A stretch of DNA of 64,000 nucleotides, taken from Nodosilinea sp. P-1105 (GTDB lineage: Bacteria; Cyanobacteriota; Cyanobacteriia; Phormidesmidales; Phormidesmidaceae). The notes below the pieces were generated by a model. That model worked only from the letters and a program-made list of their open reading frames with translations, did no database searches and was not told the origin of the DNA. Each line of letters opens with the position of its first letter. Within the stretch, counting starts at the first letter, position 1. Shown here in pieces: positions 4,296 through 11,260 of this stretch. The translations under genes were made by a program, and so were the position numbers. The stretch lies in contig NZ_SMDQ01000002.1 of NCBI RefSeq assembly GCF_012911975.1, positions 62,001-126,000 on the forward strand. The letters are read 5' to 3'.

Positions 4296-5267
4296 TTACA
4301 CCGACGACGCCCGAGACTGGGCCGTCAGGGTCAGGGCGGGGGGTACCCAGCGGCGAATCCCGACCAGCAAGCCCATCAGCGACAGCAACATCAGGGCTGC
4401 ATATAGATCTCCCCCCCACCCCTCATGAAGCCAGTCAAACGCAGCTGCCTGTCCAGTGCCGTGAAAATAGCTCAGCAGGGTGTTGCGAATCATGTTAGCG
4501 GCCAGACTAACCAGGACCACCATCGATAGAAATAGGCCGGTTTGTAGCCGCGATCGCTGCAAACCAGTCCAGTAGATCAGCATCAGCGCCACATATAAAC
4601 TCGTCAGCAACAGCTTCAGCCCAGCACAGTGGGGGGCCACCTCCACGGTTTGGCCATTGACATAGAGATACACCTGGTCCACCACCACCTGAATGCCCAA
4701 CTGGGTCAGCAAAAACCCTGCCCCTGCCGCAATCAACCGCTGCAGGGGCAGCATGTAGGGCTCAATTAAATAGGGCAACTGGGTCGGGGTCGCCAAAGCC
4801 AGCAGCAGCAGCGGCATCGCCTGTAACCTTAGGCCTGCCGTTGATTTTAGGCCCAGGCACAGCCCAACCAGCAACAGCGGCAACGACAGGTTCATCCAGT
4901 CGGTCAGACGGGTAGCATACATCAGCGCCGCCAGCCCTATGAGCCCCAGCCCCACAGGATGGCAATAGTTGGGCAACTGGACCCATCGATCCCGCTGGGT
5001 CCAGCTGAGGTAGGCGGCAAAGGGTAGGCCAATCAACCCATGGCTGAAATACTCGTGTTGAATGCTGATCGTTTTATGCAGCCAACCATCTACCCAGTGC
5101 AGCAGCAGCGGCGCGTACAGCAAGGCTAGGAGAGCAACGATGGCCCAGTTTAGGACGAGGTGACGGCGGGACATAGGTGCGGCAATGGCTGTAGACGCGG
5201 AGCAGCTTCCCCCAGGGTATGGGGATGGGTGGGGAGTTAAACCACCGGTTCCACCATAACTGGACAA
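4296..5267 (-). CDS. crtA: Cyanoexosortase A (exosortase/archaeosortase family)
   Basis: Multi-TM protein with APHCAGLK (Cys), MIRNTLLSYFHG (Arg) and WLHEGWGGDLYA (His) motifs. Confidence 0.8.
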   Translation of the reverse strand: MSSYGGTGGLTPHPSPYPGGSCSASTAIAAPMSRRHLVLNWAIVALLALLYAPLLLHWVDGWLHKTISIQHEYFSHGLIGLPFAAYLSWTQRDRWVQLPNYCHPVGLGLIGLAALMYATRLTDWMNLSLPLLLVGLCLGLKSTAGLRLQAMPLLLLALATPTQLPYLIEPYMLPLQRLIAAGAGFLLTQLGIQVVVDQVYLYVNGQTVEVAPHCAGLKLLLTSLYVALMLIYWTGLQRSRLQTGLFLSMVVLVSLAANMIRNTLLSYFHGTGQAAAFDWLHEGWGGDLYAALMLLSLMGLLVGIRRWVPPALTLTAQSRASSV

Positions 5268-5338: not shown

Positions 5339-6806
5339 TTATTGCGCCCCAGCGCTGAGGGTAATAGTGCCATACCAGTTATTGTTATCAGTGGCCGATT
5401 CGTCGGTCGTAGTCGCCTGGTTGTCTATAAATGTAGGCATGGCCCCCAGCGCTCTCACCTGGGGGGTAATACGCCCGTGAGCGGTAGCTTTTGGAGGGGG
5501 CACAAAGATGGCACCCCCTTTCCCCTGGCCAGGATTAGCCCCATCCCCAGGGATCGCTTCGTTATGCTTAAACACGGTGTTGTGCAAAATCAGTCGCCCA
5601 GCCCGCAAGAAGATGGCACCGCCTAAACCGCCGCCGCCACCGCCCAACCCGACAGACCCATCACCGCCGCCAAAGCCACCATTACCTGGGTTCCCTGGTT
5701 CCCCAGGTAAACCAAAGTAGCCCCCGGCCCCACCCCAGCCCCCGGCCTCGCCGCCGCCACCAAGGCCGCCGTTGCCACCGTCGCCACCGTTACCACCGTT
5801 GCCCCCCTTCCGGTCCACCATCCCCGCCGTTGCCGCCATTGCCAGCGTTGCCCAACCCCCCAAACCCGCCTCCACCGGCATTGGCGATAGTGCCAATACC
5901 GCCAATGCCAATACCGTTGGCCCCGGCGATCGCGCCGCGATTGGCCCTGACCCGGTCATCCACTGTGTCAATGGTGATCCCTTTGGGGGCCACGGGCAGA
6001 GCATTAGCCTGGTGAATGGCGGTTCGCAGGGTGCCAGGACCACTGTCCGCCGTCGAAGTGAGGGTAATTTGCTTCAACACCCCGGGCAGGGTGGACAGGG
6101 TGGCTGTAGACCAAGGTAAAGGGGTCTGAATCTGACCTAGGAGGGTTTCCAGCACCCAGTCCCCTCCCAGGGCGGCTGGGCCGGTGAGCGTTGTTGAGGC
6201 CGCCATATCCGCCCGGGTTAAAGCCTGGACAATCGATAAAAACTGCTGTCCTTCGATCCCCTGAGCCACTTCACAGCCGTAGATCAGCAGGTCGGCCCCA
6301 GGGTGCAAATATGATCGCCACTGTTTCAGCTCATCGTTCCACTGCTGCAGGTTGTCGAGTCTCAGCTCTTCTCCTCCCAGGACCAGGCCGCCAGGACGAC
6401 CGTGGGTCACGAGATGGACAGCCCTAACATTCTGGTGGTTAGCTAAAGCCTGGGTTACCGCCGCCAACCCCTGGCCCGACGATACGACCACCGTTTGGTG
6501 ATCGGCTGACAGCCCCTTTTGCCATGGGGCCTGATTAGCCAGGGTGCTATCGATCACGACAATGTCTGACGTCCCTCGCCAGTGAGCTGCCGCCAGCCCT
6601 CCCCAGTCAGGAAACCACCGAAGGCTACTAACCAGCCCCACCATCAGAATCAGTCCCAGGGTGATTAGCCTCGCCCTAAATCTCTTTTGCCGGGAAAATG
6701 AAGCTCGTTGTCCACCGATAACCCTGTCCCCGGGGTGATGGCCCTGACCTCCCGATTGGATAGAGTTATGGATGGTTTTACCCCGATTCTGCTGAGGCTG
6801 CCCCAT
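5339..6806 (-). pseudogene. DUF4347-domain Gly-rich surface protein split by a frameshift (ORFs 5790..6806 and 5339..6043)
   Basis: N-part has DUF4347 (HLVTHGRPGGLVLGGEEL, LLIYGCEVAQG); the Gly-rich tract runs from one frame into the other at a G6 run near 5806-5812. Confidence 0.7.
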
Positions 6807-7096: not shown

Positions 7097-7798
7097 ATGA
7101 TCTTATCGTCTCCCCCTACCATTCGCCGTGGTAAGTCTCTCTACGAGCAGGTTTACCAGGCACTGCGATCGGCTATTTTAACGGGGGAGCTAGCCCCTGC
7201 CGATCGCTTGGTAGAAACTCAGTTGGCCGAGTGGCTACAGGTAAGCCGTACCCCCCTGCGGGAGGCCCTACGCCAGTTGCAGCAAGAAGGGTTGGTGACG
7301 GCTGATATTAGCGGCGGCTTGCGGGTGACGACAATTACAGCGGCGGACGCCCGTGAGCTTTACGACTGTCGCTTAGCCTTAGAATGTTTGGCGGTGACTG
7401 GGGCCTGCAACCACGCTACCCCCGAGCAACTTCAACGAATCAAAGCCTGTGTGATGCAGGCCGAATCTATCGGTGCCCTCAGTCCCGAGAAGCCCGACCA
7501 GTTGTCGCCTCAACAACTGTTAGATGTAGATTATCAGTTCCACCATTTAATTGCCGAAAGCTCAGGGAATCAACGGCTGATTACCTTGTTAGACAGTCTG
7601 TTTGATGCCATGGCCCTATTGCGCATTCAAACCCTAAAGCAAAATCCCAATGTGCTGGACATTCGCCTAGAGCACCGACAAATTTATGACGCCATTGCTA
7701 ACCGAGACCCAGAGCAGGCTACAGCCGCCATTACTAGCCACCTGACAGCTAGTAAACAACGGGTGGTAAGAGAAATTGAAAGCTATCAGCGTGAGTGA
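7097..7798 (+). CDS. GntR family (FCD-type) transcriptional regulator
   Basis: Winged HTH LYEQVYQALRSAILTGELAPADRLVETQLAEWLQVSRTPLREALRQL plus FCD-like C-domain. Confidence 0.9.
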   Translation: MILSSPPTIRRGKSLYEQVYQALRSAILTGELAPADRLVETQLAEWLQVSRTPLREALRQLQQEGLVTADISGGLRVTTITAADARELYDCRLALECLAVTGACNHATPEQLQRIKACVMQAESIGALSPEKPDQLSPQQLLDVDYQFHHLIAESSGNQRLITLLDSLFDAMALLRIQTLKQNPNVLDIRLEHRQIYDAIANRDPEQATAAITSHLTASKQRVVREIESYQRE

Positions 7799-7915
7799 TG
7801 ATTCCAATAGCCTGGGGCCAGCGCTTAGCCTGGTGGCCAGTAGCATCTACTGCCCGATCACAAACCGCAGGATGATGCGCTGACCACTCCAATAGGAACC
7901 CTGTTAAGGGCAGTA

Positions 7916-9574
7916 CTAGGTCTCCACTTGCGATCGCAACAGCTTTAAAATCTGTTGTAACAACTCCTCTATTTGGGTCCAGGGGCTGTCAGGGGTATCT
8001 GCATCAGGAGCCTCGGGAGGAATCTTCAAGGCTTTGAGCACTTGAGGAAGTCCATGCCCTTGATAGGGATAAGGCAGGCCCAGATCAACAGCACTCTCTC
8101 GAATAGCTTGAAATAAAGCGTTGACCCGGCCCCGTTCGCGGGACATCGCCCGGATATCTGACCGGGCTTCAAGGATAAGGGCCGCTAAACCAACCACATG
8201 GGGGCAGGCCATTGAGGTACCATCCCAGGCGGCATAGGCGTCAGCCTCGGCCGATACCGCAGAGACCACAGCCACACCAGGGGCGCATACATCCAAACGC
8301 TGATTAACGTCAGCAAAACAGGTAAATTTAGCTGTGAAGAACTTACCATCAGCGCTTTTGTGCGCCCCAACTTGTCGAATATGGGCACTGCTGCTGGGGA
8401 ACGTATCCACCTGACCAATGGCCGATACCGCCAATACATCGTCATAGGCAGCAGGGTACTGAAGCTTGGTAGCTGAATTGCCAGCCGCCGCAATACAAGC
8501 AACCCCAGCATCGGTCACCTCCTGAATCTTTTGCTCCAGCAGTTCAGAGTACGTACTACTCCCCAGGCTGAGGTTGACGATATCAACCCCAGCAGTCATA
8601 CATTCATTCAGGCTGTTAATCAGGGCAGAGAATGTACCTCCCGGAAAGATTTTGCACACATGGTAATCGGCTTCAGGGGCAAACCCTCGAATTCCAAACT
8701 CATCCATGAGGCCAACAATCACGCCAGCAACATGGGTACCATGGGCCATCGGATCAAGTTTCCAACTGGTAGGGGTAGCCTCCGCCGTAAAGTCTTTACC
8801 GTTAGCGTGGTCGCCAAGGTCTTGGTGGTCAATGTAGCCTCCTGAGTCAATAATGCCGATTTTAATGCCGTTGCCTCGGTAGGGAATTTGAGCATCGCCC
8901 AATCCCATGGCTTTTTGGCCCCAACCCAGACTCTCAGTCTGTGGAAAATCCGCCAATGTTTGGTCAAAAGCCTTGAGGGCAACAACGTTATCTTGACCAG
9001 GTCGCAGAACTGGTTGATCGAGCCAAAAGCTCCAGTAATTGGCGGCGGGCCTAACCATTAGGCCACTAAGGGTATCGGCGGTTTCGCCATAAAGGGTTAA
9101 GGTGATCCGACCAGCCGCATCGGTAATTCCATCGGCATACCAGAGGCTGCCGATCAAAGTTACATGGGCATTGGCAATCGGCTGCTGGGTTTGACTGTCT
9201 CGGATCATCAACGGGATCGTTAGCTCATCATCCTTTAATGGAATCAGGTTGGCTTTAAAGTTAGGGACTATCGGCAGATCGATACCTGTCGGCTTAAATA
9301 GGTCTAGGGGCCGATCTTCCTCAACAATTAATCGGCCGTCATAGGCCCTTTTTAGATTTTCAAATCTCTCCAGTGACATCTCTGCTACCAGCAACTCTGT
9401 CTTACCGTTATGGGAAACAATTTTTTGCAAGAGTTGAATATTTAGGCTAGGGAATATGTCCCGGGCAAGAACATCAAGGTCTAAGCTCTCTAACTCTAGA
9501 GCCTGAAACCTCGGCTTACCAATCAAGGTTTTAATGTTACGAGATACTGGCTGATACTGTAATGAATTGGACAT
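7916..9574 (-). CDS. S8 family serine peptidase (subtilase), no apparent signal peptide
   Basis: Catalytic motifs IIDSGGY (Asp), HGTHVAGV (His), GTSMACPHV (Ser). Confidence 0.93.
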   Translation of the reverse strand: MSNSLQYQPVSRNIKTLIGKPRFQALELESLDLDVLARDIFPSLNIQLLQKIVSHNGKTELLVAEMSLERFENLKRAYDGRLIVEEDRPLDLFKPTGIDLPIVPNFKANLIPLKDDELTIPLMIRDSQTQQPIANAHVTLIGSLWYADGITDAAGRITLTLYGETADTLSGLMVRPAANYWSFWLDQPVLRPGQDNVVALKAFDQTLADFPQTESLGWGQKAMGLGDAQIPYRGNGIKIGIIDSGGYIDHQDLGDHANGKDFTAEATPTSWKLDPMAHGTHVAGVIVGLMDEFGIRGFAPEADYHVCKIFPGGTFSALINSLNECMTAGVDIVNLSLGSSTYSELLEQKIQEVTDAGVACIAAAGNSATKLQYPAAYDDVLAVSAIGQVDTFPSSSAHIRQVGAHKSADGKFFTAKFTCFADVNQRLDVCAPGVAVVSAVSAEADAYAAWDGTSMACPHVVGLAALILEARSDIRAMSRERGRVNALFQAIRESAVDLGLPYPYQGHGLPQVLKALKIPPEAPDADTPDSPWTQIEELLQQILKLLRSQVET

Positions 9575-9578
9575 AACT

Positions 9579-9977
9579 TCAGACCTCTTCTATAGGCAAA
9601 ACTTGGGATAACAATGCTTTGACTTGATCGACTAATTGATGTAGTCGGGCGTTCTTATCACGATCTTGGCCAGGTGGTGATTCTTTTAATGTAGAAATCA
9701 TCTCTAGAGCTGCCTCCAAATTTGAGATCAGGGCTGCAATCTTAGTCTGACGAGCATTGGCAGCCGACTGGGTCGGCTTAATGTTTGGGAGGAGGGGCTG
9801 TAGATCAGCCATTTCTGCTTCCAACTCTGCTAAAAGTTGAGCCCCCGACTGGCTCTTCTGACTCAACTGTGATGGAGGTGAACCAAAGGCTAATGCAAAC
9901 TCCTGGTCAAGACTTTGCATTAGCTCTTCTATACCAGGGGAATTTTTATTCTGGGAGTTTGGCATGGGAATCTCCAT
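9579..9977 (-). CDS. Hypothetical helical protein, co-oriented with the subtilase
   Basis: 132-aa ORF ending 4 nt before the subtilase start. Confidence 0.7.
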   Translation of the reverse strand: MEIPMPNSQNKNSPGIEELMQSLDQEFALAFGSPPSQLSQKSQSGAQLLAELEAEMADLQPLLPNIKPTQSAANARQTKIAALISNLEAALEMISTLKESPPGQDRDKNARLHQLVDQVKALLSQVLPIEEV

Positions 9978-10037
9978 TTTTTAACACGGCAATCTTGAGT
10001 TAAAATTCTCCAAAAAATGAATTTTTTGAAGAAAAAA

Positions 10038-10084
10038 GAGAGTGACTTAGACTCCAATATGACCGGAAAATTTAAGTCACTCTC
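10038..10084 (-). terminator. Terminator/attenuator-like hairpin between precursor-like gene and processing genes
   Basis: 12-bp perfect inverted repeat GAGAGTGACTTA/TAAGTCACTCTC, followed on the minus strand by a TTTTTTCTT tract. Confidence 0.6.
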
Positions 10085-10103
10085 CATGACAGTAACTATT
10101 ACT

Positions 10104-10529
10104 TTACTTGGTTGTACACTTGCGAATGCAGAGAATAGCTCGACCAGCTATATAGATGGCTCGGGCATATTTTTTGTCTCTGAAAGCTTGTACAGCCTGA
10201 CGGACAAGATTTACACAACTGGTGCAATTGCTGCCGATTCGACGAATGTACTCATAGAGACGTTTAATCAGCTTGGCTGCCCTGGATTTAAGGAGGTTGC
10301 TAACAAAAGCAGCTTCCACAGCATTATCTGCTAGGGAATTTAAATCCATAGTCCCAGCATCAGCCCCAAAGCCCGCTGCTTCCATATCAGCATCTAGGGC
10401 AGAAAGCATATCCTGTGCTTCGGATGAAAGGTTAGCCTCAAGAGTAATTAGCTCATAAAGGTCAGGATCTAATGCTGCGAAGTCAGCATCAAAGGCGTCG
10501 ACATCAAAAGTATCTACACTAAAAGTCAT
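10104..10529 (-). CDS. Precursor-like small protein: acidic N-half, basic Cys-containing C-half
   Basis: 141-aa ORF; no Lys/Arg in residues 1-80; CxxC and CxxxC in the C-terminal half. Confidence 0.7.
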   Translation of the reverse strand: MTFSVDTFDVDAFDADFAALDPDLYELITLEANLSSEAQDMLSALDADMEAAGFGADAGTMDLNSLADNAVEAAFVSNLLKSRAAKLIKRLYEYIRRIGSNCTSCVNLVRQAVQAFRDKKYARAIYIAGRAILCIRKCTTK

Positions 10530-10825
10530 GGGTCGTAATCCTCGTAGTTAGTTATGTGTTTGAGCGTTAGGCATCGTTTAATCCGGATGTTTTGATTGCC
10601 TTATGAGACTAAATTAGCCGCTGAAAATACATGCGAACAGTACACAAAGGGGTGATATTATTGTTCTCTGATTCGAGTTTATTAAGATCTGAGATTATTT
10701 TTCAGATAGAGAAATTCATTGTGTTTAAGGTGCTGAATATCGATCTTTTTCAAGAAGGCTTCAGGGGTATCAACGCAAGGCGAGAAGCATACACACTGAT
10801 CGCTCTGTGTATCAGTCTTGGACGA

Positions 10826-10995
10826 TGCCCTTCGACAGGCTCAGGGCGAACGGTTTGAGTGCATCCCACTTTTGTAGCCCTCACCCTAAATCCCTCTCCC
10901 AGAGCGGGAGAGGGACTTTGAATCCGGCCCCCCTTCTCCCATTTTGGGAGAAGGGGCTGGGGGATGAGGGTAAATTTGCATAACTGGGATGCACC
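10826..10995. repeat. Composite intergenic repeat (CCCTCTCCC hairpin family) with inverted ends
   Basis: GTGCATCCCA (10859-10868) and TGGGATGCAC (10985-10994) bracket CCCTCACCCTAAATCCCTCTCCC...GGGGGATGAGGG. Confidence 0.65.
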
Positions 10996-11260
10996 CGAAC
11001 GGTTTCAGCGCGCTCGGGCTGAGCTTGTCGTTCACGAAGTGGCTCCCAGAGGGCGCAAGCCCATTACTGACGCAACCTGTCCCGGCTTAAGTTGATACCC
11101 GGCTTCAGGCTCTTGGCGTGATCGAGGCTATTTGCCAACCCTTTCTTCGCTGGTAAAGCTCTGCTATCACACCGTCATGGCCAAAGACCAAAATCAGGCC
11201 CCTAGACGGAGCCATAAACAGTGCCGCCTAGGCAAAACGGGAATAGCGGCGCCATAGTAC

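Follow-up and report, generated by a model that had tools for sequence, protein, structure and literature searches.

What do three adjoining genes of the cyanobacterium Nodosilinea sp. P-1105, which encode a protein split into an acidic and a basic half, a small acidic protein and an S8 subtilase, produce together? The genes lie in a 64,000-nt stretch of contig NZ_SMDQ01000002.1 (positions 62,001-126,000), hereafter the window, whose numbering is used for all positions. They follow one another on the minus strand in the order precursor, small protein, S8, with 4 nt separating the last two. An earlier note on this DNA had proposed that the protease releases a cationic peptide from the charge-split precursor; its positions, strand and spacing of the three open reading frames (ORFs) were correct and its residue counts exact (18 Asp/Glu and no Lys/Arg in residues 1-80, 16 Lys/Arg and 2 Asp/Glu in residues 81-141, Cys at 102, 105, 134 and 138). 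On balance, we favour the reading that this triad is a self-contained, horizontally moving cassette making a protease-released cationic peptide that would act on membranes outside the cell.

Conservation and insertion of the triad

The family was opened with the S8 sequence as query, which gave 38 loci in the genome contig collection, and the neighbours of the best matches were read. The same triad, with order and strand kept, was found in metagenome-assembled genomes (MAGs) of Calothrix (L002), Chromatiales (L003) and Planctomycetota (L005) and on contig L004, making five loci with the window and spanning at least three phyla. In this search for homologous triples, which the earlier note had called for, precursor homologues adjoined this S8 clade in 5/5 loci. 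The precursors align over their full length with 24-41% identity to that of the window, each of the four homologue genomes holding one strong match, and they keep three features in common, namely the division into acidic leader and basic core, the framework of Cys residues and the length of the core. The S8s of the triads are 36-61% identical to the window S8, that of L002 being interrupted by a frameshift. These sequence comparisons indicate that the triad is a real conserved system and not a chance arrangement.

Relatives are few. With the window precursor as query, none were found in the genome contig collection, in 98 relatives or in plasmids, nor with the L003 precursor in viral contigs. 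A precursor profile (A1) detected no further strong member in 390 cyanobacterial genomes of the class and 65 of the order, nor in 185 Chromatiales (G394) and 198 Planctomycetota (G396) relatives of the genomes that carry the triad. When the other S8 loci were scanned for charge-split proteins, this layout appeared only in the four known precursors, the remaining matches being set aside as mostly Arg-rich or frame-shadow ORFs. Viral S8 matches were generic subtilases, and those plasmid S8 matches that were opened (Paracoccus, Streptomyces) lacked the triad.

An empty site could be identified by comparison with related genomes. In G015, whose flanks are 91-94% identical, the GntR and TlyA-type genes lie ~217 bp apart and the cassette is absent; in G002 and G004 they lie ~0.6 kb apart, again without the cassette. 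Alignment with G015 bounds an inserted segment (Table 1) that contains the triad and upstream non-coding DNA only, in line with the earlier note, which had recognised no modifying enzyme or transporter. Since the insertion holds the triad alone, the system would be either complete in three genes or reliant on borrowed host export. The guanine-cytosine (GC) content is lower in the cassette (0.45 in the precursor, 0.31 in the gap) than the window mean of 0.54. Because the triad is rare, we infer a gain in the window lineage and not a loss in the relatives, and the cassette appears to be both rare and horizontally mobile. Dispersed non-coding repeats lie at its upstream edge (10855-10999 and 11003-11100) and may have aided insertion; the first of them recurs many times, both elsewhere in this genome and in other cyanobacteria.

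Table 1. Features of the cassette, in window numbering.
Feature	Position	Strand	Evidence
Precursor, 141 aa: acidic leader, hinge and cationic three-helix core	10104..10529	-	ORF, AlphaFold2, charge analysis
Predicted freed core, residues 76-141 (VSNLLKSR...CTTK)	10107..10304	-	Predicted cut after F75
Intergenic RNA hairpin and U run directly 3' of the precursor stop (GGAGAGUGACUUA...UAAGUCACUCUCUUUUUU)	9978..10103	-	Minimum free energy -37.5 kcal/mol, z -5.5
Small helical protein of 132 aa, acidic (isoelectric point 4.6) and free of Cys	9579..9977	-	ORF, alignment
S8 subtilase of 552 aa without signal peptide	7916..9574	-	Pfam, AlphaFold2, alignment
Inserted cassette (~3.46 kb) flanked by genes for a GntR-type regulator and a tlyA-type rRNA methyltransferase	about 7793..11260	.	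Empty-site comparison

The precursor and its predicted core peptide

The charge split of the precursor was reached in 0/2000 residue shuffles, for the window protein and for each of the four homologues, and is therefore not due to chance. In the window, the leader (residues 1-75) has a net charge of -18 and an isoelectric point (pI) of 4.1, the hinge reads SLADNAVEAAF and the core (residues 76-141) has a net charge of +14 and a pI of 10.6. Leaders are acidic in 5/5 loci (pI 4.1, net -18 to -22), core net charge ranges from +13 to +21, and the hinges, of the types SLADNxVEAAF, AENDLDVQF and EDTLDVAW, end in an aromatic residue (picked by eye in L005). Counted from this aromatic, the core measures 65-66 residues in all five, while leader length varies from 73 to 93 residues. 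Aromatic P1 residues suit subtilases. Since the aromatic is conserved and the core length constant, the S8 would cut after the hinge aromatic, which is F75 in the window.

In the AlphaFold2 (AF2) model the precursor is all-helical, with a helix at 63-98 followed by a hairpin of helices 100-117 and 121-139. The first helix of the core has a strong amphipathic character, with a moment of 0.71-1.02 (shuffle p 0.0004-0.011). No family of Pfam, NCBIfam, PHROGs, PADLOC or PDB matches the precursor, and Foldseek returned no match to its model with E < 0.9; PDB profile matches to designed helical proteins and to the coiled coils of hemagglutinin were judged to be noise. The core Cys stand at positions 27/30/59/63 in the window and in L003, 30/59/63 in L002, 27/63 in L004 and 33/62 in L005, so that in the alignment L004 retains only the first and fourth (C1 and C4) and L005 only the second and third (C2 and C3). 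In the AF2 model these residues sit where the ends of the two hairpin helices face each other. Because Cys partners are lost in matched pairs, disulfides C1-C4 and C2-C3 are predicted across the hairpin, and since disulfides are implied, the active form would work outside the reducing cytoplasm. A four-Cys metal (Zn) site was rejected, as L004 and L005 hold just two Cys each.

The stem-loop that directly follows the precursor gene in the window has counterparts at the homologous loci, with z-scores of -3.5 (L003), -7.3 (L004), -7.2 (L005) and, across a longer gap, -2.7 (L002). The window hairpin is missing from the output of a simple terminator scan, which allows loops of 3-8 bases, because its loop is longer. 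It is probably a partial terminator or stabiliser giving more precursor than protease, a layout with excess precursor that is known from bacteriocin operons; a literature search on this point returned nothing.

The subtilase, its relatives and the small acidic protein

The protease belongs to the S8 subtilases (PF00082, 121.9 bits against a gathering cutoff of 21.8), and its catalytic triad D243, H278 and S454 is intact and invariant in 11 homologues. As the earlier note had observed, its N-terminus (MSNSLQYQPVSRNIKTLIG) shows no signal peptide. In the AF2 model (mean predicted local distance difference test score, pLDDT, 77.6), a beta-alpha-beta I9-like prodomain (13-86) and a beta-sandwich (about 117-200) precede the catalytic domain, with a helix at the C-terminal end (531-551), and unprocessed pro-subtilisin E (PDB 3whi) is among its best fold matches. 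As modelled, it would be a cytoplasmic zymogen-type subtilase with an I9-like prodomain. It falls outside two named maturase families: the QhpE model NF049966 of NCBIfam matches with E 5e-20 and 71.8 bits against a cutoff of 165, and no qhp gene could be recognised when the ORFs between 3 and 16 kb of the window were read; TIGR03895 (PatA/PatG cyanobactin protease) scores 37.3 bits against a cutoff of 421, and the precursor has no NCBIfam match. In function, the nearest precedent for leader removal is still QhpE, a cytoplasmic subtilase that takes the leader off its operon partner QhpC (PMC7876137).

The nearest non-triad relatives of this S8 adjoin enzymes that mature ribosomally synthesized and post-translationally modified peptides (RiPPs), namely TIGR03975 radical S-adenosylmethionine (rSAM) C-methyltransferases in L006, L007 and L008 or SagD/YcaO and SagB in L009, and it is for this reason that the window S8 most likely removes the precursor leader. 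The four proteins share its family and N-terminal region and are about 34-39% identical to it, but their clusters hold peptide-modifying enzymes, and no charge-split precursor was present beside them. In L006-L008, whose hosts are Nitrospirota and Desulfobacca, the S8 lies downstream of the TIGR03975 rSAM and is likely the leader peptidase of that RiPP type.

Further S8 relatives were noted. In Reyranellaceae (L013, 5859-9377) the S8 relative adjoins two methyltransferases, one PRMT-like and the other with a tetrapyrrole-methylase fold (YabN/CobI-like, possibly borosin-like), and in Massilia and Pseudoduganella (L010, L011) S8 relatives lie upstream of thioesterase-like and nonribosomal peptide synthetase-like genes. 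Two Streptomyces plasmids (L052, 5737-7515; L053, 5812-7596) carry full-length relatives in which GTSMA is changed to GTAIA or GTTIA, replacing the catalytic Ser, and the oxyanion Asn to Asp (PAGD); these apparent pseudoproteases each lie downstream of a Gln-rich small protein. On Paracoccus plasmids (L054, 7342-7587; L055, 7331-7582) a conserved small hypothetical protein (RFVLVYSDDRDPSREET...) directly follows the S8 relative, a further pairing of an S8 with a small protein.

The small proteins of the triads are acidic (pI 4.1-5.5), free of Cys and helical as judged by sequence pattern, and share the conserved segment ALIxxLExAxxLVxxL. No significant match was found in Pfam, NCBIfam, PHROGs or PADLOC, the weak coiled-coil matches in Pfam, PHROGs and PADLOC being rejected, and homology to the precursor leader was not supported (p 0.08-0.61). 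The S8s of L010 and L011 end in helical C-terminal tails, to which the conserved segment bears a likeness that is suggestive only (35 comparisons were made, with shuffle p 0.001 for each of these two). This likeness hints that the small protein may dock either on the protease or on the core. As a working guess, it may be an immunity protein, a chaperone or a protease partner.

Elsewhere in the window, a DUF4347 gene (5790-6806, minus strand) has a Gly-rich continuation in an overlapping ORF of another frame (5339-6043), the two looking like one frameshifted gene; an exosortase (EpsH) gene (4296-5267) adjoins it.

Proposed action, alternatives and known systems

Taken together, these features can be accommodated in the following model. 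The precursor would be made in excess, the hairpin limiting read-through into the two downstream genes. The acidic N-terminal half would keep the cationic amphipathic C-terminal half soluble and inactive, a role suggested by charge and conservation, and would offer a hinge to the protease. The cytoplasmic zymogen S8 would then cut after the hinge aromatic (VEAAF, LDVQF, LDVAW) and free a peptide of 65-66 residues which, once outside the reducing cytoplasm through lysis or a general exporter, would adopt a disulfide-stapled helix hairpin with one amphipathic helix. The freed peptide, most likely a bacteriocin-like antimicrobial, would target membranes, and the small acidic protein might restrain the core or the protease as immunity protein or chaperone, which is the weakest step. 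Release of a peptide is well supported by these indirect lines; an antimicrobial or self-lethal membrane activity of the core is a plausible prediction.

Several points weigh against this model. All four relatives of the window triad come from MAGs, and L004, filed under Trueperaceae, is a contig of 4.5 kb with uncertain taxonomy. In the tree, support for a single group of triad S8s is weak (65/84), and the small proteins are poorly conserved (21-31% identity to that of the window). The AF2 model of the precursor is of moderate quality, with a mean pLDDT of 60.9, about 72-80 in the core and low values in the leader. L002 is one imperfect case of the Cys pairing, keeping C4 without its predicted partner. 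Furthermore, disulfides require export or an oxidising compartment, yet no export route is encoded, and neither in the cassette nor beside the L002-L005 triads was there a dedicated transporter, an enzyme for peptide modification or a gene recognisable as immunity.

The last of these points would suit an intracellular suicide effector, in which a trigger (e.g. infection) activates the subtilase, the core permeabilises the producer's membrane as protease-activated bacterial gasdermins do and the small protein acts as the brake. Consistent with such a device are the minimal size of the mobile cassette, with its three genes and an empty site in relatives, the sporadic distribution, the cytoplasmic zymogen-type S8 and a putatively toxic core restrained in cis by an acidic domain. 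We nevertheless consider it unlikely, as the conserved paired Cys point to a role outside the reducing cytoplasm, the placement of the hairpins would keep the precursor in steady excess and the S8 relatives are linked to RiPP enzymes, not to defence genes. Nor does the triad fall within the defence systems of PADLOC, which gave no match to the precursor, only generic subtilase and IetS protease models for the S8 and a weak coiled coil for the small protein, or within the gasdermin systems, the precursor being all-helical over its 141 residues in AF2 and having no gasdermin match in Pfam.

Somewhat less likely again is the maturation of a protein subunit, in which the S8 trims a cationic helical protein into a cofactor-bearing, nucleic-acid-binding or assembly subunit. 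By function, the nearest named S8 maturase is QhpE, a cytoplasmic subtilisin-like protease encoded with its substrate QhpC, from which it removes the N-terminal leader (PMC7876137). In addition, the last two core helices look like tetratricopeptide repeats, with only a sub-threshold match to RPN6_N (E 0.005). The triad lacks the QhpD rSAM, the QhpF exporter and the dehydrogenase subunits, and its S8 has a larger N-terminal region. Against this reading, no enzyme or partner subunit accompanies the triad. The amphipathic core of +13 to +21 with its acidic leader is a classic neutralised-antimicrobial pattern, and a four-Cys metal site is ruled out in L004 and L005, whose cores hold two Cys each.

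It is improbable that the precursor and the small protein, instead of being substrates, regulate or inhibit the subtilase in a system of general intracellular proteolysis. The small protein could indeed dock on the protease, given its resemblance to the L010/L011 tails, but the S8 already has its own I9-like prodomain, the precursor forms its own hairpin-bounded unit, and its most regular features, core length and paired Cys, sit in the basic half, where an inhibitor would not need them. Neighbours brought together by chance, without functional link, are in effect refuted, because the same genes recur in the same order in five loci with homologous precursors, and in the window occupy one inserted segment.

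How, then, does the favoured protease-released cationic peptide compare with described systems? The cassette matches no described antimicrobial-peptide system, and no description of the triad was found in the open-access papers to which the literature search was limited, so that this absence is no proof. Lanthipeptide leader peptidases of the S8 family (NisP, ElxP, AmyP group) remove the leader to release an active peptide (PMC10885120), but the triad has no lanthipeptide synthetase, LanT or Ser/Thr-Cys ring pattern, and its helical core of 65-66 residues differs from the small ringed lanthipeptides. The circular and leaderless bacteriocins AS-48, aureocin A53 and lacticin Q are membrane-acting cationic helical peptides of saposin-like fold without Cys (PMC6072434), similar to the core in size, charge and helicity; unlike the triad, with 2-4 Cys and a leader of 73-93 residues, they have no long acidic leader or subtilase and are mostly known from Gram-positive bacteria, which places the triad outside this group. 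In plant alpha-hairpinins, a helix-turn-helix carries two Cys pairs joined C1-C4 and C2-C3 (PMC7191063). The AF2 helix hairpin and the pairwise Cys loss fit this connectivity, with the disulfides themselves being predicted; the spacing, however, is CXXXC...CXXXC in alpha-hairpinins versus CxxC...CxxxC plus an extra amphipathic helix in the triad, and topology alone is common. Finally, an acidic propiece of alpha-defensin type offsets a cationic disulfide peptide in cis until it is removed by a protease (references in PMC6057973). Such silencing by acidic propieces is established in animals, its mechanism being debated; alpha-defensins being eukaryotic and secreted with a beta-sheet core, this is an analogy only.

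The triad has a leader/core precursor linked to an S8 of a RiPP-associated family that is predicted to remove the leader, as would suit a RiPP system, but no core-modifying enzyme occurs in the cassette or was recognised beside the L002-L005 triads. It is best placed as a new variant among subtilase-matured ribosomal peptides. More tentatively, it may represent an undescribed class of peptide weapon or suicide effector, in which an unmodified disulfide-stapled cationic helical peptide, an acidic leader in cis and a dedicated zymogen subtilase are carried by a three-gene mobile cassette across phyla. Genome-mining tools keyed on modifying enzymes would miss this triad. If our reading is correct, leader removal by subtilases extends beyond small modified peptides and also serves a cationic helical peptide that is protein-sized and apparently unmodified, and the charge-neutralised pro-peptide logic of animal defensins would also be found in bacteria.
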